From positions 122,045-186,044 of the forward strand of contig CADCJX010000006.1 in the NCBI GenBank assembly GCA_902801885.1: DNA of 64,000 nucleotides, written 5' to 3'. This document shows positions 27,254-53,475 of this stretch, piece after piece. The notes under the pieces are model-generated. The model did not search any database, was not told the DNA's origin, and worked only from the letters and a program-made list of their open reading frames with translations. Numbering within the stretch: the stretch's first letter is position 1; each line of letters begins with the position of its first letter. Position numbers and translations under genes: made by a program. The stretch comes from an uncultured Bacteroidia bacterium. Lineage in GTDB: Bacteria; Bacteroidota; Bacteroidia; Bacteroidales; UBA932.

Positions 27254-28743
27254 AAGTCGATTCTTATCCTTCTGTTCTGGGGATGGAGGTTGTTCCACCT
27301 CCGTCCGATATTCTTGACGAAGCCGAGAGGATGGCCCTCGTGGCAGACGATCAGGAACCCTTCGGGTTGTCCTTCAATGAATATGCCATCGCGGTGAAGG
27401 TACCTAAGGGAAGTTTCCCTGTCCAATTCAACCGCCGGATACCGATCCAATGGAGGGAATATGCTCAGTGCCCAGTCGGCAGAGGGCACAAGGTCCTTCC
27501 CTTTCATGACTCCTTTATCAAGGCCGCTTCGGAGCGGATGAAGGATCCCGGGATCCTGTCTTGTAGATCCTGACGGCGAAGTCTTCCCAATCACCGAGAC
27601 GAACTGGCCTTCCCCTTCAACGAAGCCGGGGACCAGAAGGCCGCCTGTCCGGGTCGGGATCACTCCCGGGAGGCCTGAATAGTTATATTCCTTGACCTCC
27701 GCTCCAAGTTCGGAGACAGTCCATTCAACGTTTGAGTCGTTTTCTGCTTCCTCGAAAGAGCAGGTCGAATAGACGAGAAGTCCTCCCGTCCTTAGGGCGG
27801 GCCATACGTCGGCAAGGATCCTTTTCTGTCTTGAGGCACAGAGATTGACGGCTTCGGGCGACCAGTCTTCGACTGCCTTGGGATCCTTGCGGAACATTCC
27901 TTCACCAGAACAAGGGACATCGGTGACGATAATGTCGAAGTAGCCCTCAAGCCTGGCGAAGGCCTTGGGGTCGCAACTGGTCACGATCACGTTGGGGTCG
28001 CCCCAGACTGCTACGTTGTCGCAGAGGACAGAAGCCCTCTGGCGCATCACTTCATTGGCTACCAGTTGGAAGCCATCGCCGAAGCGTTCCCTGAGCGAGG
28101 CTGCAAGGTCGGTTGTCTTTCCTCCGGGAGCTGCGCAGAGGTCAAGTACCCTGACGGGACGGCCAAGGCCTTCGAACCGGTCAAGATGCTCCCGTACCAT
28201 GTGGCCGACAACCATGGCGGATGAATCCTGCACATAATAGCACCCGGCGTGGAACAGAGGATCCATCACGAACCGTGGCCTCTCCCCCAGCATCACCCCG
28301 TACCTGTTCCAAGGGACCTCACGATAGCCTGACCATGGTTGATCCTTTCCTGAAGGCAACGGTTGTTCCGGACAGCCGTCCGTGCCCGGCCGAGTCCATC
28401 CTCGCTCCGCTGCGGCTGAGTACGGCCTAAGCCCGGCGGCTGCTCCGGAAGGTTCAGGCCCTTCGGTCATGGAGGCAGTGGCCAACGAGGACAATGCCAC
28501 CCTCGGCACTAGAGGGGGGACCGGAGCGGAACGAAGTGGAGCGAGCGGTGGGGCCGAGCGCAGCGAGGCGTCCGAGTGGTCACTGCTTCCATGACCACAT
28601 GTATCGAAGTTTACCTTGAACGGGTTGAGACGGATAGAGACTGAAGGTGGAAGGGAAAAGGCGGGGAAGGCGGCACGGGCGCGTTCCGGCCCGACCGCAC
28701 GGGACAAAATGTCCATCAGCACCCCGTCATCCAACCCCAGCAT
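27250..28743 (-). CDS. RsmF/RsmB-like rRNA cytosine-C5 methyltransferase with inserted repeat
   Basis: A 497-residue NOL1/NOP2/Sun-family RNA m5C methyltransferase. The N-terminal LPPSVSIRLNPFK leads, after an abnormal insertion, into DPLFHAGCYYVQDSSAM, the SAM-binding VLDLCAAPGGKTTDLA, the catalytic motif IVTDVPCSGEGMFRKDP and YSTCSFEEAENDSNVE (second cysteine), then an RsmF-like C-terminal domain. Relatives I recall have about 20 residues between the RLNPFK segment and VPWNRYGVML; here there are about 100, rich in Ser, Pro, Ala and Arg, of which residues 50-93 are encoded by the repeat at 28465-28596 and about 98-126 by a second hairpin. The start lies one base after the SRPBCC stop (TAGGATG). 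Confidence 0.92.
   Translation of the reverse strand: MLGLDDGVLMDILSRAVGPERARAAFPAFSLPPSVSIRLNPFKVNFDTCGHGSSDHSDASLRSAPPLAPLRSAPVPPLVPRVALSSLATASMTEGPEPSGAAAGLRPYSAAAERGWTRPGTDGCPEQPLPSGKDQPWSGYREVPWNRYGVMLGERPRFVMDPLFHAGCYYVQDSSAMVVGHMVREHLDRFEGLGRPVRVLDLCAAPGGKTTDLAASLRERFGDGFQLVANEVMRQRASVLCDNVAVWGDPNVIVTSCDPKAFARLEGYFDIIVTDVPCSGEGMFRKDPKAVEDWSPEAVNLCASRQKRILADVWPALRTGGLLVYSTCSFEEAENDSNVEWTVSELGAEVKEYNYSGLPGVIPTRTGGLLVPGFVEGEGQFVSVIGKTSPSGSTRQDPGILHPLRSGLDKGVMKGKDLVPSADWALSIFPPLDRYPAVELDRETSLRYLHRDGIFIEGQPEGFLIVCHEGHPLGFVKNIGRRWNNLHPQNRRIRIDL
28366..28450. repeat. second inverted-repeat element inside the rsmF-like gene
   Basis: TTCCGGACAGCCG at 28366-28378 pairs with CGGCTGCTCCGGAA at 28437-28450 (one extra base), closing a core of about 58 bases. 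It encodes roughly residues 98-126 of the methyltransferase, again in the loop that is short in relatives. It sits 14 bases from the larger element at 28465-28596. Relationship to that element is uncertain; the core contains a similar CGC/GAG-rich text on the opposite strand. Confidence 0.55.
28465..28596 (+). repeat. in-frame palindromic repeat element, copy A (in rsmF-like gene)
   Basis: A 132-base element (44 codons) with 19-base inverted arms: GGTCATGGAGGCAGTGGCC at 28465-28483 and GGTCACTGCTTCCATGACC at 28578-28596, pairing at 17 of 19 positions plus two G-T wobbles on the plus strand. The core from GCCACCCTCGGCAC to GCGAGGCG is about 92 percent identical to copy B in ispH. The host gene reads it on the minus strand as residues 50-93, including SDASLRSAPP. 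It is oriented here by similarity to copies B and C. Confidence 0.85.
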
Positions 28744-28744
28744 C

Positions 28745-29227
28745 CTACTGCCCCTGTCTCCTGGCAAGCTCCTCCTGCATCCTCCGCATGGTCTCCTCGT
28801 CGATACCCTCCGGCATCCTGCCCTCGGAGACTGACACAAGACCATCCACGACCTTGTCAAGAGCCTCACGGATCTTTCCGGAAAGCATCATCTTCATCAT
28901 GAGGTTGAGGTCGGCATGGAACTCGATGTGGAAATCCGTCTTGTTAGGTTCAGAAGGGGCGGCATCGAAATGCAATGAGCCGCCGAAACTGAACGGAGCC
29001 CCGCTGTCTATGAATTCTATCCTTGAATACGGTACCCGGTCCTTGACCATGATGCCGATCTTGAATCCCTGGACCGTGGCAGTTATGGTATCGTAGTCTG
29101 CCACGACGTCCTGCCTTTTGTCCTCAGGAAGCATCTGAACGAAATTCCTCATGTCCACGAAGGCCATGTAGAGTTCGAACGGCGACTTGGACACAAGTCC
29201 GTGCTTGCTTGTTATCTCTGTTGACAT
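28745..29227 (-). CDS. SRPBCC (START-like) family protein
   Basis: A 160-residue small protein of the helix-grip/SRPBCC type: it begins MSTEITSKHGLVSKSPFELY, with a membrane/ligand-cavity-like beta region (GFKIGIMVKDRVPYSRIEF) and a C-terminal amphipathic helix (MMKMMLSGKIREALDKVVDG). Bacteroidota carry such a gene next to pyrE; function and ligand are unknown. The start at 29227 is inside the end of pyrE (12-base overlap), so it is translationally linked to pyrE upstream and to the rRNA methyltransferase one base downstream. Confidence 0.82.
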   Translation of the reverse strand: MSTEITSKHGLVSKSPFELYMAFVDMRNFVQMLPEDKRQDVVADYDTITATVQGFKIGIMVKDRVPYSRIEFIDSGAPFSFGGSLHFDAAPSEPNKTDFHIEFHADLNLMMKMMLSGKIREALDKVVDGLVSVSEGRMPEGIDEETMRRMQEELARRQGQ

Positions 29228-29238
29228 ATTCCTTGATC

Positions 29239-29871
29239 TTATCTGTTCCATGTTGACGGATTCTCACGCCAGCGGCCAAGCACTTCGGCATCATCCGGCT
29301 TGATGTACCCTGATGCCGCGGCTTCCTGGATGAGGGCTCCGTAGTTTGACAAGGTGGTCAGGGAGACCCCCTTGGCGGCGAAAGCTTCTTCCGCGACCCC
29401 GAATCCGTAGGTGAATACGGCCACCATGCCGAGCACCTCGGCTCCGGCAGCCCTGAGGGCATCAACCGCTGCCAGGCTGCTCATTCCCGTGGACACAAGG
29501 TCCTCGATCACAACCACCTTAGCCCCCTCGGGGAGAGTCCCCTCGATCTGCGACTGGGTCCCGTGATCCTTCGGCTTGGGACGGACATAGACGAAAGGCT
29601 TGCCCATCCTGTCAGCGGCGAGTACGCCATGGGCTATCGCCCCGGTAGCCACTCCGGCCACGACCTCTGCATCAGGATAAAGCTCGGAAGCCTTCTCCGC
29701 CAGAGACTCCGCCACGAATGACCGGAGTGCAGGATCGGAGAATATCCGTCGGTTGTCGCAATAGATGGGTGAATGCCAGCCGGACGCCCAGGTGAAGGGT
29801 TCATCAGGCCTGAGGAGTACGGCTCCGATGCGCAGCAGGCCCGCTGCCAGTTTTCTCTCAATGGAATCCAT
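29239..29871 (-). CDS. pyrE: orotate phosphoribosyltransferase
   Basis: A 210-residue type I phosphoribosyltransferase that converts orotate and PRPP to OMP in pyrimidine synthesis. It shows FTWASGWHSPIYCDNRRIF, AGVATGAIAHGV, the flexible loop YVRPKPKDHGTQSQIEG and the PRPP-binding VVVIEDLVSTGMSSL. First gene of a minus-strand unit with the SRPBCC protein and rRNA methyltransferase, divergent from a NUDIX gene, an arrangement familiar from Bacteroides. A TATATTTG box on the minus strand at 29911-29918 is a likely -7 element. Confidence 0.96.
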   Translation of the reverse strand: MDSIERKLAAGLLRIGAVLLRPDEPFTWASGWHSPIYCDNRRIFSDPALRSFVAESLAEKASELYPDAEVVAGVATGAIAHGVLAADRMGKPFVYVRPKPKDHGTQSQIEGTLPEGAKVVVIEDLVSTGMSSLAAVDALRAAGAEVLGMVAVFTYGFGVAEEAFAAKGVSLTTLSNYGALIQEAAASGYIKPDDAEVLGRWRENPSTWNR

Positions 29872-29890
29872 GTTCTTTCAAATGATTTGC

Positions 29891-29918
29891 TAAATTTGCA
29901 GCCTAGCTTACAAATATA
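29891..29918. promoter_or_regulatory. facing -7 boxes between pyrE and the NUDIX gene
   Basis: TAAATTTG on the plus strand (29891-29898) and TATATTTG on the minus strand (29911-29918) both match TAnnTTTG and point toward each other across 12 bases. If both are used, the two start sites would nearly coincide. No clear -33 element was found for either. Confidence 0.45.
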
Positions 29919-29937
29919 GCAATTTTATACCTCAAGA

Positions 29938-30548
29938 TGCACAAGATCTACCTTGAAAAGAGATGTATCCTGATCTGCCCGCCCGATGATCCGGCCCTTT
30001 CCGACCCCAATTCGATCGAGCTGCATCTGGGAACGGCTCCTGACATCGCCTCTATCGTGGATATGTTCGAGACTTCAGCATCCCTTTCTAGGGTGTATAT
30101 TCCGACTGATGACATCGAGGAAACTTACCACGGCTTCTGCGCACAGTTCAAGGAGGTGAATGCCGCGGGAGGGTTAGTGTCCAACCGCAGGGGCGACGTA
30201 CTGCTGATCAGGAGGAACGACCTCTGGGATCTTCCGAAAGGGCATCAGGAACAGGGGGAGGACATCAGCGTCACCGCCCTGCGAGAGGTGCAGGAAGAGA
30301 CCGGAGTCCTGAACCTCGAACTCAAGGGACTGATCTGCATCACCGACCACTGCTACCGCCGCGACGGCATCTGGCACCTCAAGCATACATGGTGGTACGA
30401 CATGCTATACATGGATCCGGTGGACCTCACGCCCCAGCGGGAAGAGGACATCACAAAGGCGGCCTGGGTTGCCCGCTCAGGTCTCTCGCCCTATCTAAAG
30501 AACACCTATCCCTCGATCGTAGAGGTCTTCCGTGAGGCAAGGGGATAA
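29938..30548 (+). CDS. NUDIX hydrolase
   Basis: A 203-residue NUDIX protein. The complete Nudix box is present at about residues 101-122: Gly, five residues, Glu (in GHQEQGE), seven residues, then REVQEETGV, giving the metal-binding REUXEEXG pattern. The N-terminal 75 residues (start MHKIYLEKRCILICPP) form an extra domain seen in Bacteroidota homologues next to pyrE. It presumably hydrolyses a nucleoside diphosphate derivative; the substrate is unknown. Confidence 0.92.
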
Positions 30549-30613
30549 TCTTCCAGGCATGATGAAACATTTTTCCGGGAAGAACCGTATATTAAAGGTA
30601 TCGGAATAATTAT

Positions 30614-31663
30614 ATGAAACTTTCTCAATTCCAATTCCTCCTTCCGAAGGAGCGCGTGGCCCAGGAGCCTACAAGGTGGCGCGACGAATGCAAACTCATG
30701 GTTGTCCATAAGGACACAGGCGAGATCGAGCACAGGATTTTCAAGGACATCATCGATTATTTCGGAAAGGGCGACACCTTCGTGTTCAATGACACTAAGG
30801 TTTTCCCCGCAAGGCTTTACGGCAAGAAGGAAAAGACCGGAGCAGACATCATGGTGTTCCTCCTGAGGGAGCTCAACCGCGAGCAGCATCTCTGGGACGT
30901 AATCGTGGATCCTGCAAGGAAGATAAGGATTGGCAACAAACTCTATTTCGGTGACGACCAGAGCCTCGTAGCTGAGGTGATCGATAACACCACCTCAAGG
31001 GGACGTACCCTGCGATTCCTCTATGACGGTCCTTACGAGGACTTCAAGCAGTCACTCTTCAGCCTCGGCGAACTGCCCGTGCCGAAGTGGGTAAAGAACA
31101 AGGTAACCCCTGAGGATAACGAGAACTACCAGACGATCTTCGCAAAGAACGAAGGCGCCGTGGCAGTGCCGGCAGCCGGAACCCATTTCAGCCGTGAACT
31201 CTTCAACCGAATGATCCTCAAGGACATTGAGAAGGCTTTCATCACAGTCCACATGGGTATAGGTCAGTTCCGCAGGGTTGACGTGGAGGACCTCTCGAAG
31301 CACAGGATGGACTCTGAAAGGATCATCATCCAGCCTGAGGCATGCGAGATCATCAACAAGGCCAAGAATTCAGGCCACAAGGTGGTCGCCATCGGAACCA
31401 CGGTTGTCCGCGGACTTGAGACCTATGTGACTACTACACACGAAGTCAAGCCCTACGACGGATGGACCAACAAGTTCATCTTCCCTCCCTACGATTTTTC
31501 CGTCCCTGACGCCATCGTCTCCGGATTCCATCTTCCGGAATCAACCATGCTCATGGCAGTGGCCGCGTTCGGAGGATTCGACAATGTCATGAATGCCTAC
31601 AAGGTCGCACTCGACAGTGACTACCGGTTCGGACCCTATGGCGATGCGATGCTCGTAATCTAA
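30614..31663 (+). CDS. queA: S-adenosylmethionine:tRNA ribosyltransferase-isomerase
   Basis: A 349-residue QueA, which adds the ribosyl part of S-adenosylmethionine to 7-aminomethyl-7-deazaguanine in tRNA to form epoxyqueuosine. Characteristic segments are [71 protein letters not shown] and [12 protein letters not shown]. It is separated from the NUDIX gene by 65 bases and from dprA by 30, so it may have its own promoter (TATATTAAAG lies at about 30588-30597). Confidence 0.95.
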
Positions 31664-31693
31664 ACTTCAATCTAAACCAACTTATTATGGAAT

Positions 31694-32863
31694 ATGGAAA
31701 ACTTCAACGACGAGAAAGTGTGCCTGTGCGCACTCAACCGGATCTTCGGGTTCGAGCCGAAGATCGGACGGATGCTGGTGGAAGCCTTCGGCGGTGCGGC
31801 CGAAGTCTTCCGTCAAACCAGTAAGGATATTTCTGAAGCCCTAGGGGCATATTCAAGGACCAGATACGCTTCGGCAATCACCGTGAGTGCCTGTGAGTCT
31901 GCAGCCATGGAGCTTGAAAAGCTCGATGGCGAAGGATGCACGTTCATGGGCATGGGTGAACCAGGCTACCCGTCCCTGCTCCTCGAATGCGAGGATCCTC
32001 CCCTTGGACTCTATTTCAAAGGTTCTTCACTTCCTGAACATGTTTTCGACCTGAGGCCGCAGGTGGCGATAGTCGGGACAAGGAGCATGTCCTACTATGG
32101 CAGGGACTGGTGCCGCCTGATGGTCGAAGCGATGTCCAAAGCAAAGGTCAAACCATTGATCGTGAGCGGCCTGGCAATAGGTATCGATGCAACCGCCCAT
32201 AAAGCGGCACTCGACTTCGGACTCCCCACCGTCGCTGTGATGGCCACCGGGATCGACCTGATCTATCCACCCAGGAACAACAGGCTTGGTGAAAGGATAG
32301 CCTCTACCGAAGGCTGTGCCCTTATCACGGATTATCCCCCGGGGACCGAGGCTGTCAGGATCAATTTCCTCCGCAGGAACAGGATCATCGCAGGGATCTG
32401 CAAGGCTACCATCCTGGCAGAGTCCAAGATCAAGGGAGGAGGAATGATGACGGCCAGGCTGGCCGGTTCTTACGACAGAGACGTATTTGCCCTCCCAGGA
32501 AGGGTGGACGATCCTCTCTCCCAGGGCTGCAACCTATTGATAAAAGAGAATATAGCCGCACCGATAGGAAACCTTTCCGACCTTGTCTCCAAGCTCGGGC
32601 TCGGAGACTCCGGCATCCGGCGGAAAGAAGACTTCAGGGCAGCGGTCGCAGAATGCTATTCGCAGATTCCGGATGAGGAGAGGGAAGACCTGCTGAAGGC
32701 GGCCATGAAGATAAAGAGCCGCAGAGGAATCGCCGTGGACGAGCTGTGCTCATCCCTGGGCTGGGCCTATAGCAAGGCTAGCAGGATCATAACCACCCTA
32801 GAGTGTGACGGATTAATCTCCGTAGACCTGCTTCAACATTGTTCCCCGAGATTGGACAAGTAA
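31694..32863 (+). CDS. dprA: DNA processing protein DprA
   Basis: A 389-residue DprA, which loads RecA on incoming single-stranded DNA during natural transformation and protects it. An N-terminal SAM-like helical region is followed by the Rossmann domain with VAIVGTRSMSYYGRDW, IVSGLAIGIDATAHKAAL, NNRLGERI, NFLRRNRIIAGI and FALPGRVDDPLSQGCN, then a C-terminal winged-helix region (RRGIAVDELCSSLGWAYSKA). Intact and of normal length. Its end is followed within about 25 bases by tatD. Confidence 0.95.
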   Translation: MENFNDEKVCLCALNRIFGFEPKIGRMLVEAFGGAAEVFRQTSKDISEALGAYSRTRYASAITVSACESAAMELEKLDGEGCTFMGMGEPGYPSLLLECEDPPLGLYFKGSSLPEHVFDLRPQVAIVGTRSMSYYGRDWCRLMVEAMSKAKVKPLIVSGLAIGIDATAHKAALDFGLPTVAVMATGIDLIYPPRNNRLGERIASTEGCALITDYPPGTEAVRINFLRRNRIIAGICKATILAESKIKGGGMMTARLAGSYDRDVFALPGRVDDPLSQGCNLLIKENIAAPIGNLSDLVSKLGLGDSGIRRKEDFRAAVAECYSQIPDEEREDLLKAAMKIKSRRGIAVDELCSSLGWAYSKASRIITTLECDGLISVDLLQHCSPRLDK

Positions 32864-32884
32864 TCGGGAAAATGAGTATCTTTG
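32852..32884 (+). promoter_or_regulatory. promoter for tatD-ansA, nearly leaderless
   Basis: TTGG at 32852-32855 and TATCTTTG at 32877-32884 fit a Bacteroidota promoter with a 21-base spacer. The preferred tatD ATG begins at 32890, only five bases after the -7 box, so the transcript would start at or next to the start codon. Confidence 0.6.
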
Positions 32885-32889
32885 AAGAC

Positions 32890-33651
32890 ATGTTCTTCAT
32901 TGACACCCATTGTCACATCTCTGACGAGGCATTTTCCTGCGAGGAGGATGCCTATATCTCCCGTGCACTTGAAGCAGGCGTGGGCATGATGCTCCAGCCG
33001 GACGTAGACAGCTCTGAAAGGGACGCCATGTTCGCCCTTACGGACCGCTATCCCGAAGTCCTTCGACCCATGCTCGGGCTGTACCCGGGATCCGTGGACG
33101 GTAACTGGAGAGACGAAATCGACAGGATGCTTGAATATTCCGACCGCCCTGTAGTTGCAATAGGCGAGATCGGACTGGACTACCATGAGGGCCGCGAATT
33201 CGAGAAAGAGCAGAAAGAAGCCCTCAGATGGCAGTTCGAATACGCCAAGAGCAAGGGTCTGCCGGTGAACATCCATCTCAGGGATGCCATGGGCGACTTC
33301 CTGGATGTCGTGCGCGAACACCCCGGCCTTCGTGGGAACATGCACGCCTACAGCGGAAGCTATGAGAGTTTCCTGGAACTCCAGAGACTCGGGGACTGGT
33401 ACATCGGTGTCGGAGGCGTGGTAACATTCAAGAACGCTTCACTCGCCGAAGTAGTGAAGAAGGTTCCTCTTGAAAGGATTGTCCTCGAGACCGACGCTCC
33501 CTACCTCACCCCGGTTCCCTACCGGGGAAAGAGAAACGAGAGCTCATACATCCCGATAATCGCCGCAAAGGTGGCGGAACTCAAAGGCATCTCCGTCGAG
33601 GAGGTCGCAGAAACAACTACGAACAACGCTAAAAATCTTTTCGGAATATGA
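32890..33651 (+). CDS. TatD family metal-dependent DNase
   Basis: A 253-residue TatD-type hydrolase. The metal-binding motif FIDTHCHI opens the protein, followed by GEIGLDYHEG, NIHLRDA, MHAYSGS and the ETDAPYLTP motif. The family acts as 3'-5' exonuclease or metal-dependent hydrolase in DNA quality control. An upstream in-frame ATG at 32872 would add six residues across the apparent -7 box, so 32890 is preferred. Its stop overlaps the ansA start (ATGA). Confidence 0.92.
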   Translation: MFFIDTHCHISDEAFSCEEDAYISRALEAGVGMMLQPDVDSSERDAMFALTDRYPEVLRPMLGLYPGSVDGNWRDEIDRMLEYSDRPVVAIGEIGLDYHEGREFEKEQKEALRWQFEYAKSKGLPVNIHLRDAMGDFLDVVREHPGLRGNMHAYSGSYESFLELQRLGDWYIGVGGVVTFKNASLAEVVKKVPLERIVLETDAPYLTPVPYRGKRNESSYIPIIAAKVAELKGISVEEVAETTTNNAKNLFGI

Positions 33652-34682
33652 CAGGCTCCTCAATTCTGATGATCTACACCGGTGGCACCATCGGCATGAA
33701 ACAGGATCCCAAGGACCAAACCCTGAAGCCATTCGACTTCAGCCAGATCCTCGAGGAAGTACCCGAGTTGGGCAAATATGCCCTCAATATCGATTCCTAC
33801 ACCTTCAATCCACTTATCGACTCTTCCGACGTGGAGCCGTCGCTATGGCAATCGCTGGCGACCCTCATAAAGGACCGATATGATGAGTACGACGGATTCG
33901 TGGTCCTTCACGGAACCGACACGATGGCATATTCAGCTTCCGCACTGAGTTTCATGCTGGACAACCTCACGAAGCCGGTGATCTTCACCGGAAGCCAGCT
34001 TCCCATCGGTGTACCAAGGACGGATGGGAAGGAAAACCTCATTTCTGCCGTGGAGATTGCTGCAGCTAAAGACGAGGATGGTCATTCCCTGGTTCCGGAA
34101 GTCTGCATATTCTTTGATTCCCAACTCCTCAGGGGCAACAGGTGCACAAAGGTCAGCTCAGAGGAATTCCGAGCCTTCCGCTCGCCTAACTACCCTGCCC
34201 TCGCCGAAGCCGGGATCAACATCAGATACAACCGCAAGGCGATTGCCGAACCACAGGACTGGTCAGCCCCGATCCGTATTTCAACAAACCTGGACACCAG
34301 GGTGTCGATCCTCAAGGTCCACCCTGGGATCACTCCGCAGGTGATGAGGTACTTCCTTTGCGGAGACGGGACAAGGGCAGTCATCCTCGAAACCTACGGT
34401 TCCGGGAACGCTCCTTCAAGCCAGTGGTTCCTGGACATTGTGAGGGAGGCTGCAGCCATGGGCAAGGTTCTGATGAATGTCACCCAATGCCTTTCAGGTT
34501 CCGTGGATATGGACCTCTACGCCACTGGAAAGGCTCTGGAAAAGATAGGCGTGGTCTCCGGCAGGGACATAACGACGGAAAGCGCGCTGGCAAAGCTGTT
34601 CTGCCTGATGGGGGACAGCAAGGACAACGAATGGGTAAAGAACCGGCTCGGGGACAATCTTAAAGGAGAAATTTCAAAGTAA
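33648..34682 (+). CDS. ansA: type I L-asparaginase
   Basis: A 344-residue cytoplasmic asparaginase that hydrolyses asparagine to aspartate and ammonia. The first nucleophile motif IYTGGTIGMKQ and the second motif VVLHGTDTMAYSASAL are both intact, and IFTGSQLPIG and ILETYGSGNAP follow the type I pattern. No signal peptide. Translationally coupled to tatD by an ATGA overlap. Confidence 0.94.
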   Translation: MTGSSILMIYTGGTIGMKQDPKDQTLKPFDFSQILEEVPELGKYALNIDSYTFNPLIDSSDVEPSLWQSLATLIKDRYDEYDGFVVLHGTDTMAYSASALSFMLDNLTKPVIFTGSQLPIGVPRTDGKENLISAVEIAAAKDEDGHSLVPEVCIFFDSQLLRGNRCTKVSSEEFRAFRSPNYPALAEAGINIRYNRKAIAEPQDWSAPIRISTNLDTRVSILKVHPGITPQVMRYFLCGDGTRAVILETYGSGNAPSSQWFLDIVREAAAMGKVLMNVTQCLSGSVDMDLYATGKALEKIGVVSGRDITTESALAKLFCLMGDSKDNEWVKNRLGDNLKGEISK

Positions 34683-34685
34683 CCC

Positions 34686-34714
34686 TTGCCTTTTGAAAAT
34701 AAATTAGTAAATTG
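34686..34714 (+). promoter_or_regulatory. candidate promoter for the ExbB/ExbD operon
   Basis: TTGCC at 34686 and TAAATTG at 34708-34714 resemble the -33/-7 pair with an 18-19 base spacer, though the -7 box is one T short. It is followed by a leader of about 85 bases containing a small inverted repeat (GGAGGG at about 34727 with CCCCCTC near 34741-34747). Confidence 0.5.
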
Positions 34715-34807
34715 CAACGGTTTTTTGGAGGGTTTCCCGACCCCCTCAATGAGTCAGAACGAATTAACTATTTAATACTTTATTAATTAAAACACACGAA
34801 AACGGTT

Positions 34808-35605: not shown

Positions 35606-35644
35606 TTATAGTATAGTTAGAATCACTCTTTAGAATCTGTTGAA

Positions 35645-36067
35645 ATGAACAAATTATCCAAGATAATCGGCTGGGTGCTGGGTATTGTAGGCATCGTGCT
35701 GGGAGTCTGGTGTCTTGCCAAAGGCGAGGCAACAAACGAAGGCCCGGTGAACGTGCTCCTCAGGTACAGCTATTTCCTGCTTATCGCAGCAATAGTTATC
35801 CTGCTCGGACTTGCCCTCATCATGGCCGCTAAGAACAATCCGAAGAGCCTTATCAGGGCGCTGATCATCCTGGTCGGCATCGCGATAGTCGTAGGCATCG
35901 CCTATGCCCTGGCTCCCGGCACTCCTGCCGCCAACGTGAGAGAGCAGCCTAGCACATCACTGCTCAAGCTTACTGACACTTGGCTTATTCTGGTCTACAT
36001 CCTCGGAGGTGCAGCAATTGTGTCCATCCTCTTCGGTGTTATCAGAAACGCTATCACCAACAAATAA
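35645..36067 (+). CDS. small membrane protein of the ExbB/ExbD cassette
   Basis: A 140-residue protein with four hydrophobic helices: IIGWVLGIVGIVLGVWCLA, YFLLIAAIVILLGLALIM, LIILVGIAIVVGIAYAL and LILVYILGGAAIVSILFGV. No enzymatic motif. It lies between exbB and exbD, 39 bases after the former and 9 before the latter, and similar proteins occupy this place in other Bacteroidota, so it is probably an accessory subunit of the energising complex; this role is inferred. Confidence 0.8.
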   Translation: MNKLSKIIGWVLGIVGIVLGVWCLAKGEATNEGPVNVLLRYSYFLLIAAIVILLGLALIMAAKNNPKSLIRALIILVGIAIVVGIAYALAPGTPAANVREQPSTSLLKLTDTWLILVYILGGAAIVSILFGVIRNAITNK

Positions 36068-36076
36068 TTTTCGGCT

Positions 36077-36655: not shown

Positions 36656-36672
36656 TTCAGGAGGATAAGAAT

Positions 36673-37134: not shown

Positions 37135-37154
37135 CCCGTCAGGACATAAGAATG

Positions 37155-37187
37155 AAAAAAGGACGCACGCAAGTGTGTCCTTTTTTG
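37155..37187 (+). terminator. intrinsic terminator after the ExbB/ExbD operon
   Basis: AAAAAAGGACGCAC, loop GCAA, GTGTGTCCTTTTTT: a stem of about 8 strong pairs (one G-T) followed by a T run, with A-tract on the other side, so it could also end transcription from the opposite direction. Confidence 0.88.
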
Positions 37188-43891: not shown

Positions 43892-43893
43892 CA

Positions 43894-44298: not shown

Positions 44299-44299
44299 G

Positions 44300-47015: not shown

Positions 47016-47043
47016 TTCGGATTGTTTTTCATTCACTCTTTAT

Positions 47044-47051
47044 GCAAATAT
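47044..47051 (-). promoter_or_regulatory. candidate -7 box for the sigma-54 activator gene
   Basis: GATATTTG on the minus strand, close to TAnnTTTG, about 29 bases before the chosen start codon. Back-to-back with the cmk promoter, which lies 25 bases to the right on the plus strand. Confidence 0.4.
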
Positions 47052-47075
47052 CGGACATTTTTCTCGGAATTTTGA

Positions 47076-47083
47076 TATTTTTG
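47076..47083 (+). promoter_or_regulatory. -7 box of cmk, nearly leaderless
   Basis: TATTTTTG matches the TAnnTTTG consensus and ends five bases before the cmk ATG (47089). The predicted start site falls at or next to the start codon. No convincing -33 TTTG is visible. Confidence 0.55.
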
Positions 47084-47088
47084 TCTTT

Positions 47089-47775
47089 ATGAACATACCT
47101 GATATCATCATAGCCGTCGACGGCTACTCATCAACCGGCAAGAGCACATTCGCAAAGCTTGTCGCGGAAAAATATTCATTCCTTTACCTCGACTCCGGAG
47201 CGCTCTACAGAGGCGTTACGCTCTACGCCCTGGAGAACGGCCTTATCGATCCCGAAGGGAAGATCGACGATGATGGATTAAGGGCTGCCCTGCCTTCCCT
47301 CGCTTTGGATTTCAGGCCGGAGGGAACCTTCATAGGAGACCGCTGCGTCGAGAAAGAGATCCGTACCCTGGAGGTTTCCAGTCATGTCAGTCCGGTTTCT
47401 GCCATCCCCTTCGTAAGGAATTTCGTTGATGACAGGCTGCATGCCTTCGGCCTTCGCAAGAGGGTCATCATGGACGGCAGGGACATAGGAACGACAGTTT
47501 TCCCCGAAGCCGAGATCAAGATATTCATGATCGCCACACCCGAAGTGAGGGCACAGAGGCGTTTTGACGAAATGAAGGCCAAGGGGCAGGATCCGGTGTT
47601 TGAGGACGTCATGAAGAACCTTCTGGAGAGGGACTATATCGACTCCCACAGGGAGGTATCTCCTCTCTCACGCGCCGATGATGCCTACGTCATGGACAAT
47701 TCCGACATGACTCTCCACGAGGAAACCGTCTGGTTCCAGGGGCTTTGCCAGGGCAAGTTCGGAATCCTTGAATAA
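47089..47775 (+). CDS. cmk: cytidylate kinase
   Basis: A 228-residue CMP/dCMP kinase. P-loop AVDGYSSTGKSTFAKLVA, then YLDSGALYRGVTLYAL, GRDIGTTVFPEAEIKIF, EVRAQRRFDEM and a typical C-terminal end. It phosphorylates CMP and dCMP to the diphosphates. Its stop TAA shares a base with the ispH ATG (TAATG), and this cmk-ispH order is also common in Bacteroidota. Confidence 0.95.
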   Translation: MNIPDIIIAVDGYSSTGKSTFAKLVAEKYSFLYLDSGALYRGVTLYALENGLIDPEGKIDDDGLRAALPSLALDFRPEGTFIGDRCVEKEIRTLEVSSHVSPVSAIPFVRNFVDDRLHAFGLRKRVIMDGRDIGTTVFPEAEIKIFMIATPEVRAQRRFDEMKAKGQDPVFEDVMKNLLERDYIDSHREVSPLSRADDAYVMDNSDMTLHEETVWFQGLCQGKFGILE

Positions 47776-48794
47776 TGGCTCTTTCCGTTGAGATAGAAAA
47801 ACATTCCGGTTTCTGCGGCGGGGTCATAAGGGCTATCGGCCGGGCCGAGAAGTTCCTGGATTCCAACCCGGGAAAGAAGCTCTATTCCCTTGGTGCGATA
47901 GTACATAACGAGGCAGAACTCTCACGCCTCGGGGCCAGGGGGCTGGTTACTATTGGCCATGAAGACATCGGGAATATTCCTGAGCCTGATGAAGAGACAC
48001 TGCTCATCCGTGCCCACGGAGAGCCGCCTGAGACCTACGAACTAGCACGCAAAACCGGCATCGATGTCATCGACTGCACTTGTCCCGTGGTACTGAAACT
48101 GCAGAAAGACATCCGTGACGCATATTTTCGACTTCAAGCCATCAAGGCAGGTCAGGCTAGCGAGACCACTGCCACCCTCGGCACGTTAAGAGGGGGGACC
48201 GGAGCGGAACGAAGTGGAGCGAACGGTGGGGCCGAGAGGAGCGAGGCGGTCGAGCAGTCTGGACCTGCCTTGACGGCGAAAGGGCAAGTATTAGTTTTCG
48301 GGAAGATCGGTCACGCGGAAGTACTGGGGCTGCTGGGACAGGTCGGAGGCGACGCCGTGGTTATTGAGAACATGGGCATGCTCCTATCCGCCCTTGAAAA
48401 AGGAGAAATCAGGACAGACGTTCCGCTGGAGATCTTCTCCCAGACTACGAAAAGTCCAATTGAATATTCAGAGATCTGCGCTGTCCTCTCTGAAAAGGCC
48501 CAAGCCGGACTGACTGTCCACAACACTATCTGTTCGCAGGTTGCATCAAGGCATGAAGAGCTTTCTTCCTTCGCCCAGTCCCACGACATAATCATTTTCG
48601 TATCAGGGGCTTCCAGTTCAAACGGGAAAGTCCTGTGCGACCTTTGCAGGTCGAGGAATCCAAGGACCTATCACATCTCTTCTCCTGACGACATCGACCC
48701 GGCCTGGTTCGGTCCCGACGACAGGGTCGGCATCTGCGGAGCCACCTCTACCCCACGCTGGCTTCTCGAGCAAGTCGCGGAAGCTGTGCGCTAA
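47775..48794 (+). CDS. ispH: 4-hydroxy-3-methylbut-2-enyl diphosphate reductase with inserted repeat
   Basis: A 339-residue IspH, the [4Fe-4S] enzyme that makes IPP and DMAPP in the last step of the MEP pathway. The three iron-sulfur cysteines are in SGFCGGVIRAIGRAE, DVIDCTCPVVLKLQK and HNTICSQVASRHEEL; RAHGEPPETY and GKIGHAEVLGLLGQ are conserved. Homologues in Bacteroides are about 290 residues; the excess is the stretch of about 47 residues (122-168), rich in Gly, Ala, Glu, Arg and Ser, encoded by the repeat at 48138-48277. It sits in a surface loop between KDIRDAY and GQVLVFGKIGH, outside the catalytic motifs, so activity is probably kept. Confidence 0.93.
   Translation: MALSVEIEKHSGFCGGVIRAIGRAEKFLDSNPGKKLYSLGAIVHNEAELSRLGARGLVTIGHEDIGNIPEPDEETLLIRAHGEPPETYELARKTGIDVIDCTCPVVLKLQKDIRDAYFRLQAIKAGQASETTATLGTLRGGTGAERSGANGGAERSEAVEQSGPALTAKGQVLVFGKIGHAEVLGLLGQVGGDAVVIENMGMLLSALEKGEIRTDVPLEIFSQTTKSPIEYSEICAVLSEKAQAGLTVHNTICSQVASRHEELSSFAQSHDIIIFVSGASSSNGKVLCDLCRSRNPRTYHISSPDDIDPAWFGPDDRVGICGATSTPRWLLEQVAEAVR
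48138..48277 (+). repeat. in-frame palindromic repeat element, copy B (in ispH)
   Basis: Inverted arms GCCATCAAGGCAGGTC (48138-48153) and GACCTGCCTTGACGGC (48262-48277) pair at 15 of 16 positions. The core starts GCCACCCTCGGCAC and includes GGGGGGACCGGAGCGGAACG; relative to copy A it has one 3-base insertion and about five substitutions in 66 aligned bases. It is read in the plus direction as ispH residues 122-168 (…ERSGANGGAERSEAVEQ…) without a stop. Confidence 0.87.
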
Positions 48795-48800
48795 AGTATA

Positions 48801-48832
48801 TTTGGAAGAAAAGTCGCAAATAATTAAATTTG
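48801..48832 (+). promoter_or_regulatory. promoter of efp
   Basis: TTTG at 48801-48804, a 20-base spacer and TAAATTTG at 48825-48832 match the Bacteroidota promoter. The efp ATG is at 48868. Confidence 0.8.
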
Positions 48833-48867
48833 CATGATTGAATATTAGAATTTTAACTCATTAGTAT

Positions 48868-49434
48868 ATGGCAACAACTGCAGATTTCAAGAACGGACTG
48901 TTCATCAACTACAACGGCAAGCCTTGCCAGGTAGTCTATTTCCAGCATGTAAAACCGGGCAAGGGCCCTGCTTTCGTCAAGACGAAGCTCCGCAACCTTG
49001 AGAACGGAAGGATCCTCGAGAACACTTTCACCGCCGGTATGAAGATCGATGTCATCACCGTCGAAAGGCGTCCCTACCAGTTCCTCTATTCAGATGAGGA
49101 CGGATTCAACTTCATGCATGAGGAGACTTACGAGCAGATCCATCTCCCTCACGACGTGGTCGAGAATGCCGACCTCATGAAAGAAGGCCAGCATGTGGAG
49201 ATGATGTTCGTACTCGAGCCTGAGGAGAGGTGCCTCACCTGCGAGCTCCCTACCTATGTCGAGCTTGAGGTCACCTACGCCGAACCCGCAGTCAAGGGCA
49301 ACACAGCTTCCACCAGCGCTCTCAAGGAAGTCACCCTGGAGACCGGTGCAAAGGTGATGGTTCCGCTCTTCATCAACCAGGGAGAGAAGATCACCGTCAA
49401 CACTTCCGACCGCAGCTACGGCCAGAGGGTCTAG
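48868..49434 (+). CDS. efp: elongation factor P
   Basis: A 188-residue EF-P, which relieves ribosome stalling at polyproline. The KOW-like N-terminal domain has the tip loop HVKPGKGPAF with Lys32 at the position that is modified in many bacteria; two OB domains follow, ending in EKITVNTSDRSYGQRV. No EpmA or EarP gene is visible in the window, so the type of modification is unknown. Monocistronic: own promoter and terminator. Confidence 0.96.
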   Translation: MATTADFKNGLFINYNGKPCQVVYFQHVKPGKGPAFVKTKLRNLENGRILENTFTAGMKIDVITVERRPYQFLYSDEDGFNFMHEETYEQIHLPHDVVENADLMKEGQHVEMMFVLEPEERCLTCELPTYVELEVTYAEPAVKGNTASTSALKEVTLETGAKVMVPLFINQGEKITVNTSDRSYGQRV

Positions 49435-49451
49435 GAACAATAGCTAATCAC

Positions 49452-49487
49452 AAAAAAACGGGTGGATGATTGTCCACCCGTTTTTTG
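49452..49487 (+). terminator. intrinsic terminator after efp
   Basis: AAAAAAACGGGTGGA, loop TGATT, then GTCCACCCGTTTTTTG: a strong 8-pair GC stem flanked by A and T tracts. The TTG at 49470-49472 in its loop is positioned as a -33 element for the next gene. Confidence 0.9.
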
Positions 49488-49499
49488 TAATTATCTTTG
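49470..49499 (+). promoter_or_regulatory. promoter of the C69/sialidase-like gene, embedded in the efp terminator
   Basis: TTG at 49470-49472 (terminator loop), a 19-base spacer and TATCTTTG at 49492-49499. The ATG at 49505 begins five bases later, so the transcript is probably leaderless. Confidence 0.6.
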
Positions 49500-49504
49500 G
49501 GAAT

Positions 49505-51697
49505 ATGAGCAACTTATTACTGGCCATCCTTTTAAGTTTCGGAATTATCGCCGGTTCCAAGGCGACGACGGACGGATATGTCTATCTTGGGCACAATGTG
49601 GACTTGAGCGGAGAAAAGATGCTGAACATCTACAATGTACCCCCTTCAAAAAACGGGATGGCCGGATTGTGGTTCGAATTCCCTGGCCGGATCGATGACA
49701 GCTATGTCAACGAAAACGGAGTTTGCATAGCTTCGCACGAAACACCTTCAATGGAAAATGGCCGTGCAGGCAGACATTTGTACAAGTTACAGACAAAGGC
49801 TTTCAGGAAGGCCAGGAGCGCAAGGGAAGCAGTAAGGATCATAGGGACGGGACTAAGATGGAAGGCTTGCCAAGAGTCCGGCAGAACCTTTCTGATAGCC
49901 GACTCAAGGGAAGGCTGGGTCCTCTCAGTAGTAAAGGGCCGGACATGGGTGGCCCAAAGGGTCCCGGACGACGAGATCATGATCATCTCCGGAAGATTCA
50001 ACATCCAGGAGACAGACCTTAGGGACACAGCAAATTTCATTGGCAGCAAGAGACTGGCCCGGAAGGCCAGAAGGGAGGGATGGAATTTCGCAAAAACATA
50101 TTCGGCACCATCTATCTTGCCCAGTCCTGAGTACACCGAAGCCTATGCAAAAGCCAGGAAACTCTTTTTCGGAGACAGCCTGAGTCTGGAGGAAGCTCCT
50201 TTTTCCGGCAGACCTGTGAGGAAGTTCCATCGGAGGGACCTGTCCAAATTGCTTTCTGATGCCCCTATTCATAACGAGAATACTGCACTCACTACAATAT
50301 TCACCCTCAATCCAAACTATCCTGCCGCGAAAGGCACAGTGATCTGGGTCGGGTTCCCGGGCCAGGATGCTGCCAACCATAACCAGTGGACTATATTCAC
50401 GAAGTCTCCCGAATCCTGCCATCGGTACGACGACGCCTCCACGGCGATGGACAGGCATTTCCTGGACACCGGCGGTTTCAGGGAACGTTGGCCCGAACAT
50501 TTCTACTGGCACTATCTATTTCCCGAGACCAACATCAATGTCATTCCCCATGACCACACTGTCTACGTCCCTGAGAGTCAGCGTGGTGGGCATGACTCAT
50601 TCAACGACCACTTCCATGTCCTCGGAGACGAAAAGAGAGGGTTGCTTCATGCTTTCTGGACTCAGGGATCGTACGAGGCTGCGGATGACGAGAAGGTGGT
50701 GTACTCCAGCAGCGCAGACGGAGGAAAAACCTGGACGGAGCCGGTCATGATCGCTGGTTCGCCTTCCATCGAAGACCCGCAACCTGTGGCTGCCTGGCAA
50801 CAGCCAATGATCAGCAGGAGCGGGAGGCTCTACTGCCTGTGGAACCAAGAAACTACTGTAAAGAAACATCTATGCGGCCTCATGTTCGGCAGATACTCAG
50901 ATGACGGCGGAAAGACTTGGAGCAAGCCGGAACAAGTACCCTTCCCCATCAGGTTCAAGGCTGATCCTGAAGACCCTTCAGTCCCTCCGACCTGGTGCAT
51001 GTGGCAGAGGCCCCTTCGTCTCGGGAAGGATGGACGCTACATTGCAGGCTGCTCACGTTACGGCTCCGACGGCATAAGCAAGGTGGAATTCTGGCAATAC
51101 GAGAACATTGATGAGGATCCGGAGATAAAGAATATCAGAATCTCATTTTTCAATACGGACGAGGATGCATTCGACGCTGGTAAGGTTACAAACGACCACG
51201 ACTATTCCCCTAGGGATGGCCATAGAGTAGAGGAAGCATGCTTGACCGGACTCCCGGACGGAAGGCTTTTCGCCGTAATGCGCACGACTATAGGTCATCC
51301 TATCTGGTCCGTCAGTTCTGACGATGGCGAAACCTGGAGCAGGCCCGAGATCCTACGTATGAGAGATGATGGGGAACCTATCCTGCAGCCATGTTCCCCT
51401 TGCCCGATCTACGACTACGAAGGCCCTGAAGCCAGAAGCGGAAAGTACTTCCTGATGGTACACAACACCTTCGACTTCAATGGTTTGACATCCTACCAGA
51501 ACCGCGGTCCAGTCTACAAACTGGACGGGGAGTTCGTCCCTGGGGCCCACCAGCCTGTATGGTTCGAAGAGGCAGGCATATTCTCACCTCGGGATTCCGG
51601 GAACTCACTCTACACCAGCTATACTGTCTTTGACCGCGAGGGAGTACTCTGGTTCGGTGACCAGAAATACTACCTCTTCGGTAAGAAGATGCGGTGA
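49505..51697 (+). CDS. C69 dipeptidase-like domain fused to a sialidase-like BNR domain
   Basis: A 730-residue chimera. Residues 1 to about 320 resemble family C69 (PepD) Ntn-hydrolases: GSKATTDGYVYLGHNVDLSG, then WVAQRVPDDEIMIISGRF and NIQETDLRD. In C69 enzymes the catalytic cysteine lies 13 residues before the glycine of ATxDG; here that position is Ser11 and no cysteine is near, within a hydrophobic N-terminus (MSNLLLAILLSFGIIAGS). From about residue 340 the protein is sialidase/neuraminidase-like, with Asp-box repeats SADGGKTWTEP, SDDGGKTWSKP and SDDGETWSRP. The first part may be inactive or use serine. The second could act on or bind glycans. An upstream in-frame ATG at 49466 lies inside the efp terminator and is rejected. 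Confidence 0.72.
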   Translation: MSNLLLAILLSFGIIAGSKATTDGYVYLGHNVDLSGEKMLNIYNVPPSKNGMAGLWFEFPGRIDDSYVNENGVCIASHETPSMENGRAGRHLYKLQTKAFRKARSAREAVRIIGTGLRWKACQESGRTFLIADSREGWVLSVVKGRTWVAQRVPDDEIMIISGRFNIQETDLRDTANFIGSKRLARKARREGWNFAKTYSAPSILPSPEYTEAYAKARKLFFGDSLSLEEAPFSGRPVRKFHRRDLSKLLSDAPIHNENTALTTIFTLNPNYPAAKGTVIWVGFPGQDAANHNQWTIFTKSPESCHRYDDASTAMDRHFLDTGGFRERWPEHFYWHYLFPETNINVIPHDHTVYVPESQRGGHDSFNDHFHVLGDEKRGLLHAFWTQGSYEAADDEKVVYSSSADGGKTWTEPVMIAGSPSIEDPQPVAAWQQPMISRSGRLYCLWNQETTVKKHLCGLMFGRYSDDGGKTWSKPEQVPFPIRFKADPEDPSVPPTWCMWQRPLRLGKDGRYIAGCSRYGSDGISKVEFWQYENIDEDPEIKNIRISFFNTDEDAFDAGKVTNDHDYSPRDGHRVEEACLTGLPDGRLFAVMRTTIGHPIWSVSSDDGETWSRPEILRMRDDGEPILQPCSPCPIYDYEGPEARSGKYFLMVHNTFDFNGLTSYQNRGPVYKLDGEFVPGAHQPVWFEEAGIFSPRDSGNSLYTSYTVFDREGVLWFGDQKYYLFGKKMR

Positions 51698-51715
51698 AAA
51701 GAAGTGAAATAATGC

Positions 51716-51723
51716 TATATTTG
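51716..51723 (+). promoter_or_regulatory. -7 box of dnaX, nearly leaderless
   Basis: TATATTTG, an exact TAnnTTTG match, ends six bases before the dnaX ATG at 51730. No clear -33 element is seen. Confidence 0.55.
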
Positions 51724-51729
51724 TATGTT

Positions 51730-53475
51730 ATGTCAGACTATATAGTATCAGCCAGGAAGTACCGTCCGGACTCGTTTGAAACCCTGATCGGACAGGACAA
51801 CATAGCCCAGACCCTGAAGAACTCGATCATCAGGGGAAAGCTGGCACATGCCTACCTTTTCTGCGGTCCCAGAGGAGTGGGAAAGACCACTACTGCAAGG
51901 ATTTTCGCAAAGGCTATCAACTGCGCCCATCCATCCGAGGACATGGAGCCCTGCGGCGAATGCGAATCCTGCATATCCTTCCAGGAAGGCCGTTCCTACT
52001 GCATCCATGAACTGGATGCCGCCTCCAACAACGGAGTGGAAGACATCAAGAACCTGATGGACCAGGTCCAGATTCCTCCACAGGTCGGAAAGTACAGCGT
52101 CTACATCATCGATGAGGTCCACATGCTGTCAACGGCTGCCTTCAACGCCTTCCTAAAGACCTTGGAGGAACCACCGGCACATGCAATATTCATCCTGGCT
52201 ACCACAGAGAAACATAAGATCCTTCCGACCATCCTCTCCCGCTGCCAGACTTACGACTTCAACAGGATTTCCATTCCCGACATAGTCAGGAACCTGAGGA
52301 TGATCGCAGAAAAGGAAAATGTCACCATAGACGACGAATCCCTCCATGTGATAGCCCAGAAGGCTGACGGAGCAATGCGTGATGCCCTCACCATCTTCGA
52401 CCAGACAGTGGCATTCTGCGGTACGGATGTCAAATACGCGGACGTGATCAGGAACCTGAACGTCCTGGATTATGACTATTCCTTCGGCCTGGTGGAAGAT
52501 TTCCTGGCCGGAGATTATGGCAAGGCCCTGCTGACCTTCGATGAAGTCTTGTCGAAGGGATTCAATGCCCTACATTTCTGCGCTGCCCTGAGTTCACATT
52601 TCAGGGACCTCATGGTGACCAAGAACGGAGGACTGGATTCACTCCTCGAACTTCCCGAATCGCTGAAAAAGAGATATATCGACCAGGCTGCCCGTTGCCC
52701 GCTTAAGTTCCTGTACGACGCCCTGAGCATCACGACTGCCTGCGAGGCCGGTTACAAGATGGCAGTCAACCCCAGGCTCCACATCGAATTCGCCTTGATG
52801 AAGCTCAGCTTCCTCCTCAAGGCCCCAGCCGCGGTTCCTGCAACGACTCCTGTCGCATCGATGGACTCAAGGATCGTGTCCAGCCGACAGAGAGTTGAGA
52901 GTGAGGACGCTGCCGCCCGCGTCACCAGCGGAGGGACCATGAGCGGAACGAATGGTGGGGCCGACCGAAGTGAGGCGTCCGAACCGCAGCACCGCGAACG
53001 CCGCAGGCCTCCTAAGAGCGGATCCGCCCTCTCGCTCAACGCTATCCTAGAAGAGGAAGAAAGCAAAAAATCCAAGGAAAAAGTCCTCGCAGTCTCCGAC
53101 GAACTTCCACAGGACGAAAGTATCCTGAAGGCCTGGGCTACGGTACCTGAGGAGTATTCATCTAGCCCCAGGCTCGCCAACACCCTAAAGAACGCCGAAG
53201 TCGAGATTGAAACCTCCGAAGGCATGAAGGTCTTGACTTTCAAGGTCAGCAATCTGTCCCAGCAGAAATGGATCCAAGAGAACAGGCTCCTGGCACTGGA
53301 AGGAAATTTGCAGAAGAAAGTCGGCTCCTCCAGGATCCGCCTCGAAGTCGGAGTGATTCCCATGGAAGAAAAGGAAAGGCAGCCCTACACCGACCAGGAA
53401 AAGGCGACAGCCCTCATGGGCAAGAATGGAGAGATCCAGAACCTTATCAAGGATTTCGGCCTTGAAACCAAGTAA
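51730..53475 (+). CDS. dnaX: DNA polymerase III subunit gamma/tau with inserted repeat
   Basis: A 581-residue clamp-loader ATPase. Walker A GPRGVGKT at residues 46-53, the zinc-binding cysteines (INCAHPSED, then CGECESC), Walker B YIIDEVHMLS and the sensor ATTEKHKILPTILSRCQ are intact. A poorly conserved linker (about 375-430) follows domain III and contains the repeat at 52905-52986 (about residues 392-420), then a short C-terminal domain. The start at 51730 (MSDYIVSARKYRPDSFETLI) is the family start; longer readings would cross the -7 box. It loads the beta clamp at the replication fork. Confidence 0.95.
   Translation: MSDYIVSARKYRPDSFETLIGQDNIAQTLKNSIIRGKLAHAYLFCGPRGVGKTTTARIFAKAINCAHPSEDMEPCGECESCISFQEGRSYCIHELDAASNNGVEDIKNLMDQVQIPPQVGKYSVYIIDEVHMLSTAAFNAFLKTLEEPPAHAIFILATTEKHKILPTILSRCQTYDFNRISIPDIVRNLRMIAEKENVTIDDESLHVIAQKADGAMRDALTIFDQTVAFCGTDVKYADVIRNLNVLDYDYSFGLVEDFLAGDYGKALLTFDEVLSKGFNALHFCAALSSHFRDLMVTKNGGLDSLLELPESLKKRYIDQAARCPLKFLYDALSITTACEAGYKMAVNPRLHIEFALMKLSFLLKAPAAVPATTPVASMDSRIVSSRQRVESEDAAARVTSGGTMSGTNGGADRSEASEPQHRERRRPPKSGSALSLNAILEEEESKKSKEKVLAVSDELPQDESILKAWATVPEEYSSSPRLANTLKNAEVEIETSEGMKVLTFKVSNLSQQKWIQENRLLALEGNLQKKVGSSRIRLEVGVIPMEEKERQPYTDQEKATALMGKNGEIQNLIKDFGLETK
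52905..52986 (+). repeat. in-frame repeat element, copy C (in dnaX), shortened
   Basis: A shorter relative of copies A and B: GAGCGGAACGAA then GGTGGGGCCGA and a GAGGCGTCCGA end are shared, but about 12 bases between the first two blocks are missing. GGACGC (52905-52910) and GCGTCC (52975-52980) form short inverted ends. Read in frame as about residues 392-420 of dnaX, in the variable linker. On the opposite strand it would read SDASLRSAPP, the same peptide that copy A encodes in the rsmF-like protein. Confidence 0.7.

Follow-up and report, generated by a model that had tools for sequence, protein, structure and literature searches.

P1, a palindromic repeat with a folded core and site-specific arms, inserted in frame in genes of uncultured Bacteroidales

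In uncultured Bacteroidales of gut and rumen, genes including ispH, dnaX, miaA, ftsK, recQ, argC and argD carry in-frame copies of a palindromic repeat, here named P1. Three of these copies (A, B and C) lie in a window of 64,000 nucleotides (nt) of contig CADCJX010000006.1, from the assembly GCA_902801885.1 of an uncultured Bacteroidia bacterium, within an rsmF-like gene, ispH and dnaX, respectively. P1 is a dispersed family, with 24 curated copies in the 2.46 Mb genome of this organism (G000), often in essential genes that it leaves unbroken. Its conserved part is a folded core of about 80 nt and not a peptide, and its most unusual part, missed in an earlier sequence-only reading of the window, is a pair of inverted arms that differ from site to site. 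We consider it probable that P1, some 120–140 bp long, is a small selfish element that moves as folded single-stranded DNA and has its arms renewed by template switching. Rickettsia and Wolbachia are the best-known carriers of palindromic elements inserted in frame, and the architecture of P1 differs from that of their elements. The repeat accounts for odd insertions of 40–50 residues in otherwise conserved proteins, which is relevant to annotation and to structure prediction, and, with a fixed core between arms that change jointly, P1 offers a natural case in which selection and template switching can be tested against each other as the source of compensatory changes in hairpins.

Dispersal, host genes and empty sites

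Used as a query over the whole genome, copy A found 26 places, 19 of them at E ≤ 1e-7, and a pattern of the core allowing up to three mismatches found 14, with none for the reversed pattern. Three short matches (L020, L023 and L026; E 6e-4 to 1.2) were left out of the total, and L049 was added from the core-pattern search. The repeat is thus not confined to the three loci from which it was described, and an explanation by chance low complexity is opposed both by the reversed-pattern control and by the covariation of the core. Fifteen of the 24 copies are inserted in frame in 14 genes, within spanning open frames of 340–812 codons, and nine lie outside long open frames. By Pfam, the hosts are rsmF, argD, recQ, argC, ispH, miaA, dnaX, ftsK, a gene for a periplasmic binding protein (two copies), a PLD-type (cardiolipin-synthase-like) gene, a MatE transporter, the E2 component of a 2-oxoacid dehydrogenase, a glycoside hydrolase 3 and a mannose-6-phosphate isomerase; gene names such as argD, argC, manA and dinF are what we take these Pfam families to represent.

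Outside G000, the core pattern was scanned in species genomes, and 80 loci, containing 82 pattern matches, were listed of at least 117 stretches found; every label among the 80 is Bacteroidales or Bacteroidia. Of 80 copies in other genomes, 47 lie in frames of at least 200 codons, and 33 are outside long open frames. The 47 genic copies run along the gene in 23 cases and against it in 24, and they use five of the six possible frames (15, 14, 8, 6 and 4 copies), none being in frame with a conserved TAA, an avoidance that is expected since 'coding' was defined by an open frame. As five of six frames are used, no particular P1 peptide is kept, and the encoded peptide is not conserved. The sequence-only reading had proposed a mobile or spreading protein-coding element: the spread, the insertion in frame and the absence from many orthologues hold, and the protein-coding nature has to be given up in view of the frames used and of the copies outside long frames in both sets. 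With a covariance model (R1), P1 was detected in 36 of 61 genomes of the same genus, G000 included, at up to 27 copies per genome. Among 295 genomes across the order, four carry it, G000 being one of them, and the others belong to one genus of the same family and, in two cases, to other families; the same design recurs in G268 and G238. No P1 was found in viral contigs (exact pattern) or in phage records. Among plasmids, eight Azospirillum records had partial matches some 35 nt long; two of these records were inspected and not taken as P1.

In the window itself, a repeat search paired positions 28511–28581 with 48189–48259, a 71-nt block of 90% identity between copies A and B, with copy C at 62%. 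In blastn of copy A against its own genome, B was recovered at E = 4e-26 and C at 1e-7; model R1, built from other species and run on the 64 kb, matched all three (Table 1). Much of what had been read from the letters alone is borne out by these searches: the three hosts are unrelated genes of the RsmF-like, IspH/LytB and DnaX families (Pfam), a 3-base indel separates the cores of A and B, copy A lies opposite to its host gene while B and C lie on the same strand as theirs, and the outer limits proposed for A and B mark the two ends of a long inverted repeat that encloses the core they share. The core motifs that the copies were said to share are near chance level when taken singly with two or three mismatches allowed, and their joint match is not. 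The statement that no reading gives a stop was mistaken, for across the whole stem-loop only two of six frames are open in A and one of six in B, the host reading frames being among them. The placement in surface loops fits IspH, in which alignment to a solved chain leaves 48 extra residues, the insert, between adjacent aligned residues; a structure predicted from the single sequence was poor (mean predicted local distance difference test score, pLDDT, of 45), was not used, and provides no model of the loop. MiaA compares similarly with a solved chain, with a 41-residue insert between adjacent aligned residues.

Table 1. P1 copies, host genes and a second repeat in the 64,000-nt window.
Feature	Position	Strand	Remarks
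P1 copy A, whole stem-loop (outer arms and core)	28465..28596	+	inside rsmF, itself read on the - strand
Folded core of copy A, subtype 1, 87 nt	28488..28574	+	model R1 match 28486-28576, E 2e-8
P1 copy B, whole stem-loop	48138..48277	+	inside ispH (+ strand)
Folded core of copy B, subtype 2, 90 nt	48163..48252	+	model R1 match 48161-48254, E 1e-12
P1 copy C, degenerate core without outer stem	52902..52983	+	dnaX linker; model R1 E 0.0014
Host gene rsmF-like, RsmB/F-type rRNA methyltransferase	27250..28869	-	Pfam PF01189, PF17125, PF13636
Host gene ispH (LytB)	47775..48794	+	Pfam; insert separates two aligned stretches
Host gene dnaX	51694..53475	+	Pfam; insert after domain III, whose match ends at residue 376
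P2, second palindromic repeat, unrelated to P1	28349..28468	-	inside rsmF beside copy A; absent from the G017 orthologue

Many orthologous sites in the same genus are empty. P1 is absent from argD in G013 and G008, from argC in G017, G013 and G008, from ispH in G016, G003, G008 and G019, from miaA in G003, G016 and G008, from dinF in G003, and from recQ, manA and dnaX in G017. On the other hand, G000 and G017 both carry P1 at the same site in argD, dinF, E2, rsmF and ispH, and the glycoside hydrolase of G017 has a related P1 subtype at the site shared with G000. Some of the insertions are shared by descent within the genus, and at several of the sites relatives are empty. In miaA of G017 (L072), the right half of P1 is kept and the left half is replaced by another palindromic, C-rich insert. 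Five genomes (L095, L100, L103, L117 and L165) have P1 at what is apparently one site in a presumably ribF-like gene, with entirely different arms.

The argC site was compared over a wider range. Loci of 15 of 29 relatives were tried, and with G570 and G438 dropped (one flank placed only) 13 relatives had both flanks placed; P1 is present in G366 alone, and 12 of the 13 lack it. Judged by eye, G017, G506, G590 and G440 have palindromes of the type ATGCCCGATC..GTCGGGCAT together with ATTCC..GGAAT, G456 and G049 have the palindrome CCCTGAGCTTGTCGAAGGG instead of P1, and G058, G483, G384, G065, G060 and G497 have a short linker without the palindromes seen in other relatives. The argC loop of G017, G506 and G590, which lacks P1, holds the palindrome ATGCCCGATCTGGTCGGGCAT. 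When the local fold at 26 empty sites was compared with random windows of the same gene or locus, the mean share of windows at least as stable was 0.39, with 0.5 expected by chance. Sites folding more stably than at least 87% of the windows (shares 0.00–0.13) are argC in G017, G506, G590 and G440, miaA in three genomes and recQ in one. Some sites, argC above all, thus attract several kinds of hairpin, and others are without sign of a hairpin before insertion. As a separate observation, the palindromes in the argC loop (L261, L265–L267, L269 and L272) differ by species and include CCCTGAGCTTGTCGAAGGG and an ATTCCC..GGGAAT type; their likeness to CGTC-type repeats is our impression.

The folded core and its site-specific arms

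Sixty-four of 76 extracted cores were aligned (alignment A2), 12 being left out as odd, long or near-duplicate (L093, L101, L116, L120, L128, L139, L146, L155, L160, L161, L166 and L169). The motifs GCCACCCTCGGC and AAGAGGG are invariant in the aligned copies. The core consists of a stem NNNTGCC/GGCANNN around ACCCTC, two more hairpins whose loops are mostly GNA triloops, and a stem AAACC/GGTTT, with compensations, that closes the structure. The first of these stems covaries, its outer pairs occurring with three or four Watson-Crick types. Over the whole structure, which was chosen for scoring after the alignment had been seen, 143 cells are changed on both sides, as against a mean of 42.6 in shuffled alignments (0 of 500 shuffles as high) and 15–58 two-sided cells when the structure was slid along the alignment; paired cells make up 93.2% in the structure and 35.6–55.7% when slid. 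The loop CCCTC could pair with GAGGG just downstream, a possible pseudoknot. In three copies (L049, L096 and L122) hairpin 2 is extended into a long hairpin, bringing the core to 118 nt in L049; additional sequence is apparently tolerated at this hairpin.

Of 105 cores, 86 could be parsed, and in 77 of them the loop of hairpin 3 is C[GNA]G. Such triloops number 149 in 9,927 bases of core and 240 in 137,594 bases of flank, and their middle base is free (GAA 85, GGA 27, GCA 23 and GTA 13). With a closing G-C pair, GNA loops form mini-hairpins that have been described as extraordinarily stable in DNA (PMC4686876); owing to this stability in DNA, the triloops favour a single-stranded DNA form of P1.

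An outer stem surrounds the core in 23 of the 24 copies of G000, and its sequence differs by site. In other genomes, 79 of the 82 pattern matches lie within an outer stem of 18–46 pairs; L121 and L125 gave no outer stem, and L128 only six pairs. The two arms change together. At eight sites shared between species, 194 aligned pairs (paired in both species) comprise 150 unchanged pairs, five with a change on one side and 39 with changes on both. In addition, at two of the ten shared sites examined (ispH in G000 and G017, and L106 and L129) the two copies have their cores in opposite orientations relative to the host, the ribF-like and E2 sites being outside this score. Each arm is also somewhat self-complementary, with a mean z of -0.74 for 101 arms and of -0.01 for 154 flank windows. 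No direct target duplication of fixed length is common among the 78 copies tested; the direct similarity of the two stem ends is slightly raised, with a mean of 5.15 against 4.87 for mismatched pairs (one-sided p 0.012). The idea that the arms derive solely from an inverted duplication of the host flank, hinted at by the recQ, miaA and L054 sites, was dropped as a general rule: it is opposed by the consensus of the arms near the core described below, and L054 is equally readable as a direct duplication.

How P1 may move and how its arms may be kept

These observations could be joined as follows. The core of about 80 nt most likely moves as folded single-stranded DNA, with an enzyme or a host process as its presumed mover, and would persist where hairpin DNA is tolerated, which means intergenic DNA or those protein loops in which the frame is kept open. 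Once inserted, it would clamp its two flanks into a hairpin at the replication fork, and the polymerase, by switching templates from arm to arm, may repeatedly copy one arm onto the other. Such switching would keep the arms complementary while their sequence drifts, could lengthen them, and would sometimes flip the core. In an account of yeast genes, template switching between inverted repeats, in coding DNA as well, leads to homogenization of arms and inversion of the spacer (PMC8604942). Because joint arm changes and core flips match these two published outcomes, template switching appears a likelier cause of the arms than selection on pairing, its main rival.

Selection could act if, for example, transcription ends at the hairpin or the hairpin protects the insert in mRNA, and it would equally explain an excess of two-sided over one-sided changes. 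Long frames end no more than about 20 nt from several of the non-genic copies, which agrees with such a role. Arms are paired inside coding regions too, though, where a strong hairpin should be a burden; among the nine non-genic copies of G000, six lack a T-run behind the stem (by eye); and flips of the core are predicted by template switching, not by selection. We therefore regard selection on the arms as unlikely. Somewhat more room is left for another order of events, in which inverted arms pre-existed and P1 inserts into the tips of hairpins. It is possible, if doubtful: argC relatives without P1 hold other palindromes, and the empty argC, miaA and recQ sites named above fold unusually stably, but the other empty sites are ordinary, with a mean share over all 26 only modestly below that expected by chance, and different species can have wholly different arms at one and the same site.

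As to the mover, miniature inverted-repeat transposable elements (MITEs) are conserved at their ends. An ordinary MITE, that is, a non-autonomous element whose terminal inverted repeats are recognized by a DDE transposase encoded elsewhere, would account for a short, dispersed repeat with inverted ends, for the weak consensus of the arms close to the core, for two copies in G238 (L250 and L254) with near-identical arms, and for the slight direct similarity of stem ends. In P1, however, the pattern of conservation is inverted, the ends varying by site while the core is nearly fixed, and there is no common length of direct duplication, which makes this reading quite improbable. Repetitive extragenic palindromes (REPs) moved on folded single strands by a Y1 tyrosine transposase (RAYT/IS200-like) share with P1 the folded single-strand design, and intragenic REPs are known (PMC3733652). 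Yet Y1_Tnp at E ≤ 1e-8 was found neither in G000 (99% complete) nor in the copy-rich G017 and G058; four of the 61 same-genus genomes have a match, three of these are without a P1 match and the fourth, G060, has seven. As P1 also has variable ends and no fixed GTAG or CGTC end, we hold a REP-type origin to be very improbable. Hardly better placed is an RNA element, structured or retro-element-like, spread by reverse transcription. The core does fold and covary in the manner of a structured RNA, but a search of 11 of 35 loci with the Rfam 15 covariance models gave one chance match only (E 4.3), RVT_1 at E ≤ 1e-8 is absent from G000, G049, G064 and G065, which have 17–23 P1 copies each (18 of the 61 genomes have one), and 24 of the 47 genic copies would appear in mRNA as the antisense strand. 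With no match in G000 at E ≤ 1e-8, a Y1 transposase or a reverse transcriptase was set aside as the mover there.

Several points weigh against movement of P1 as single-stranded DNA with arms renewed by template switching. No insertion was seen between near-identical genomes, and the joining step is thus not observed. No mover emerged from the searches, which covered Y1_Tnp and RVT_1 but neither DDE transposases nor tyrosine recombinases. Of the five covariation measures, two are no higher than in shuffles, namely pairs with a two-sided change (9, against 8.1) and further pair types (22, against 23.5), and the CCCTC/GAGGG pairs never vary, so that the pseudoknot is no more than possible. CNC triloops are likewise over-represented in cores (121, against 214 in flanks), an excess attributed to the invariant CCCTCGG; the copies are related, and the triloop counts are not independent; and the argument from GNA loops is indirect, as RNA could have such loops too. 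Paired changes in the arms could also be explained by selection on pairing. The count of these changes covers positions paired in both folds, leaving aside 42 aligned positions that have no partner in at least one of the folds, and the ispH and rsmF pairs of G000 and G017 were excluded from it as their arms are not alignable. Finally, within about 24 nt of the core the arms share a weak consensus, roughly GGRGGGG..T..CYYC.GAAAC, and therefore are not wholly derived from the site.

Related systems and further repeats

Rickettsia palindromic elements (RPEs) and their counterparts in Wolbachia are described as palindromes of about 100–150 bp, in several families, inserted in frame in unrelated genes (PMC10969869, PMC3767692). 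P1 has this in common with them (15 of 24 copies, in 14 genes), and the comparison with Rickettsia made in the sequence-only reading was apt in that respect. By the account in PMC10969869, RPEs encode a conserved peptide; P1, in contrast, has no conserved peptide, being read in five frames, and has a near-invariant folded core with site-specific arms, the two being compared by description and not by sequence. REPs are described as a single stem of 5–13 bp with a fixed tetranucleotide end, and CGTC repeats reported in Bacteroidetes seem, in the same account, to lack a dedicated transposase and have some copies in genes (PMC3733652). As in CGTC- and GTAG-tagged REPs, P1 is a small palindromic DNA, partly intragenic; unlike them, it has a multi-hairpin core of about 80 nt, outer stems of 18–46 pairs, no fixed end and no match to a REP-associated tyrosine transposase (RAYT) in G000. 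Small size, dispersal and inverted ends recall MITEs, from which P1 differs in the variable ends, the fixed core and the lack of a common target-duplication length. Inverted repeats within functional genes have also been reported as coding palindromes in the mitochondria of Nematomorpha (PMC6649704) and, with arm homogenization and spacer inversion, in the yeast genes cited above; as described, these are not dispersed with a common core. By the features compared, P1 appears to be neither an RPE nor a REP, and to be a palindromic element inserted in frame whose folded core is fixed and whose site-specific arms change together. A description of the family was not found in the literature searched, where limited coverage of subscription papers means that this is no proof of there being none.

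P1 is accompanied in the same genus by two unrelated repeat families, P2 and P3. P2 has 12 matches in G000 and 27 in G017. It is conceivable, though we think it unlikely, that P1, P2 and P3 belong to one class of mobile DNA without a transposase of its own, in which folded single strands multiply and settle by template switching at the replication fork of the host, a process that would also build their site-specific arms and renew them continually. If this were true, hairpins driven by replication would continually remodel essential genes of these gut bacteria.

Some minor observations were made on non-genic copies and on the two further families. L106, L109, L120, L126, L157 and other non-genic copies of P1 fill intergenic gaps, with long frames ending at most about 20 nt from the stem, and may act as terminators. 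Insertion into terminator loops was rejected as a general account, as three of the nine non-genic copies of G000 are terminator-like by eye (L011, L025 and L049) and six are not. P2 has a core near GGCCGTACTCAGCCGCAGCGNAGCGAGGATGGACTCGGCC, a loop of GNA type and, like P1, outer stems that are specific to the site, and further copies are among L208–L236. P3 begins with CTACCCCCCTGCACCCCC (L209, L217–L219 and L229–L231) and has four matches in G000; in five of seven loci, by eye, a site-specific hairpin in the host sequence precedes the repeat.

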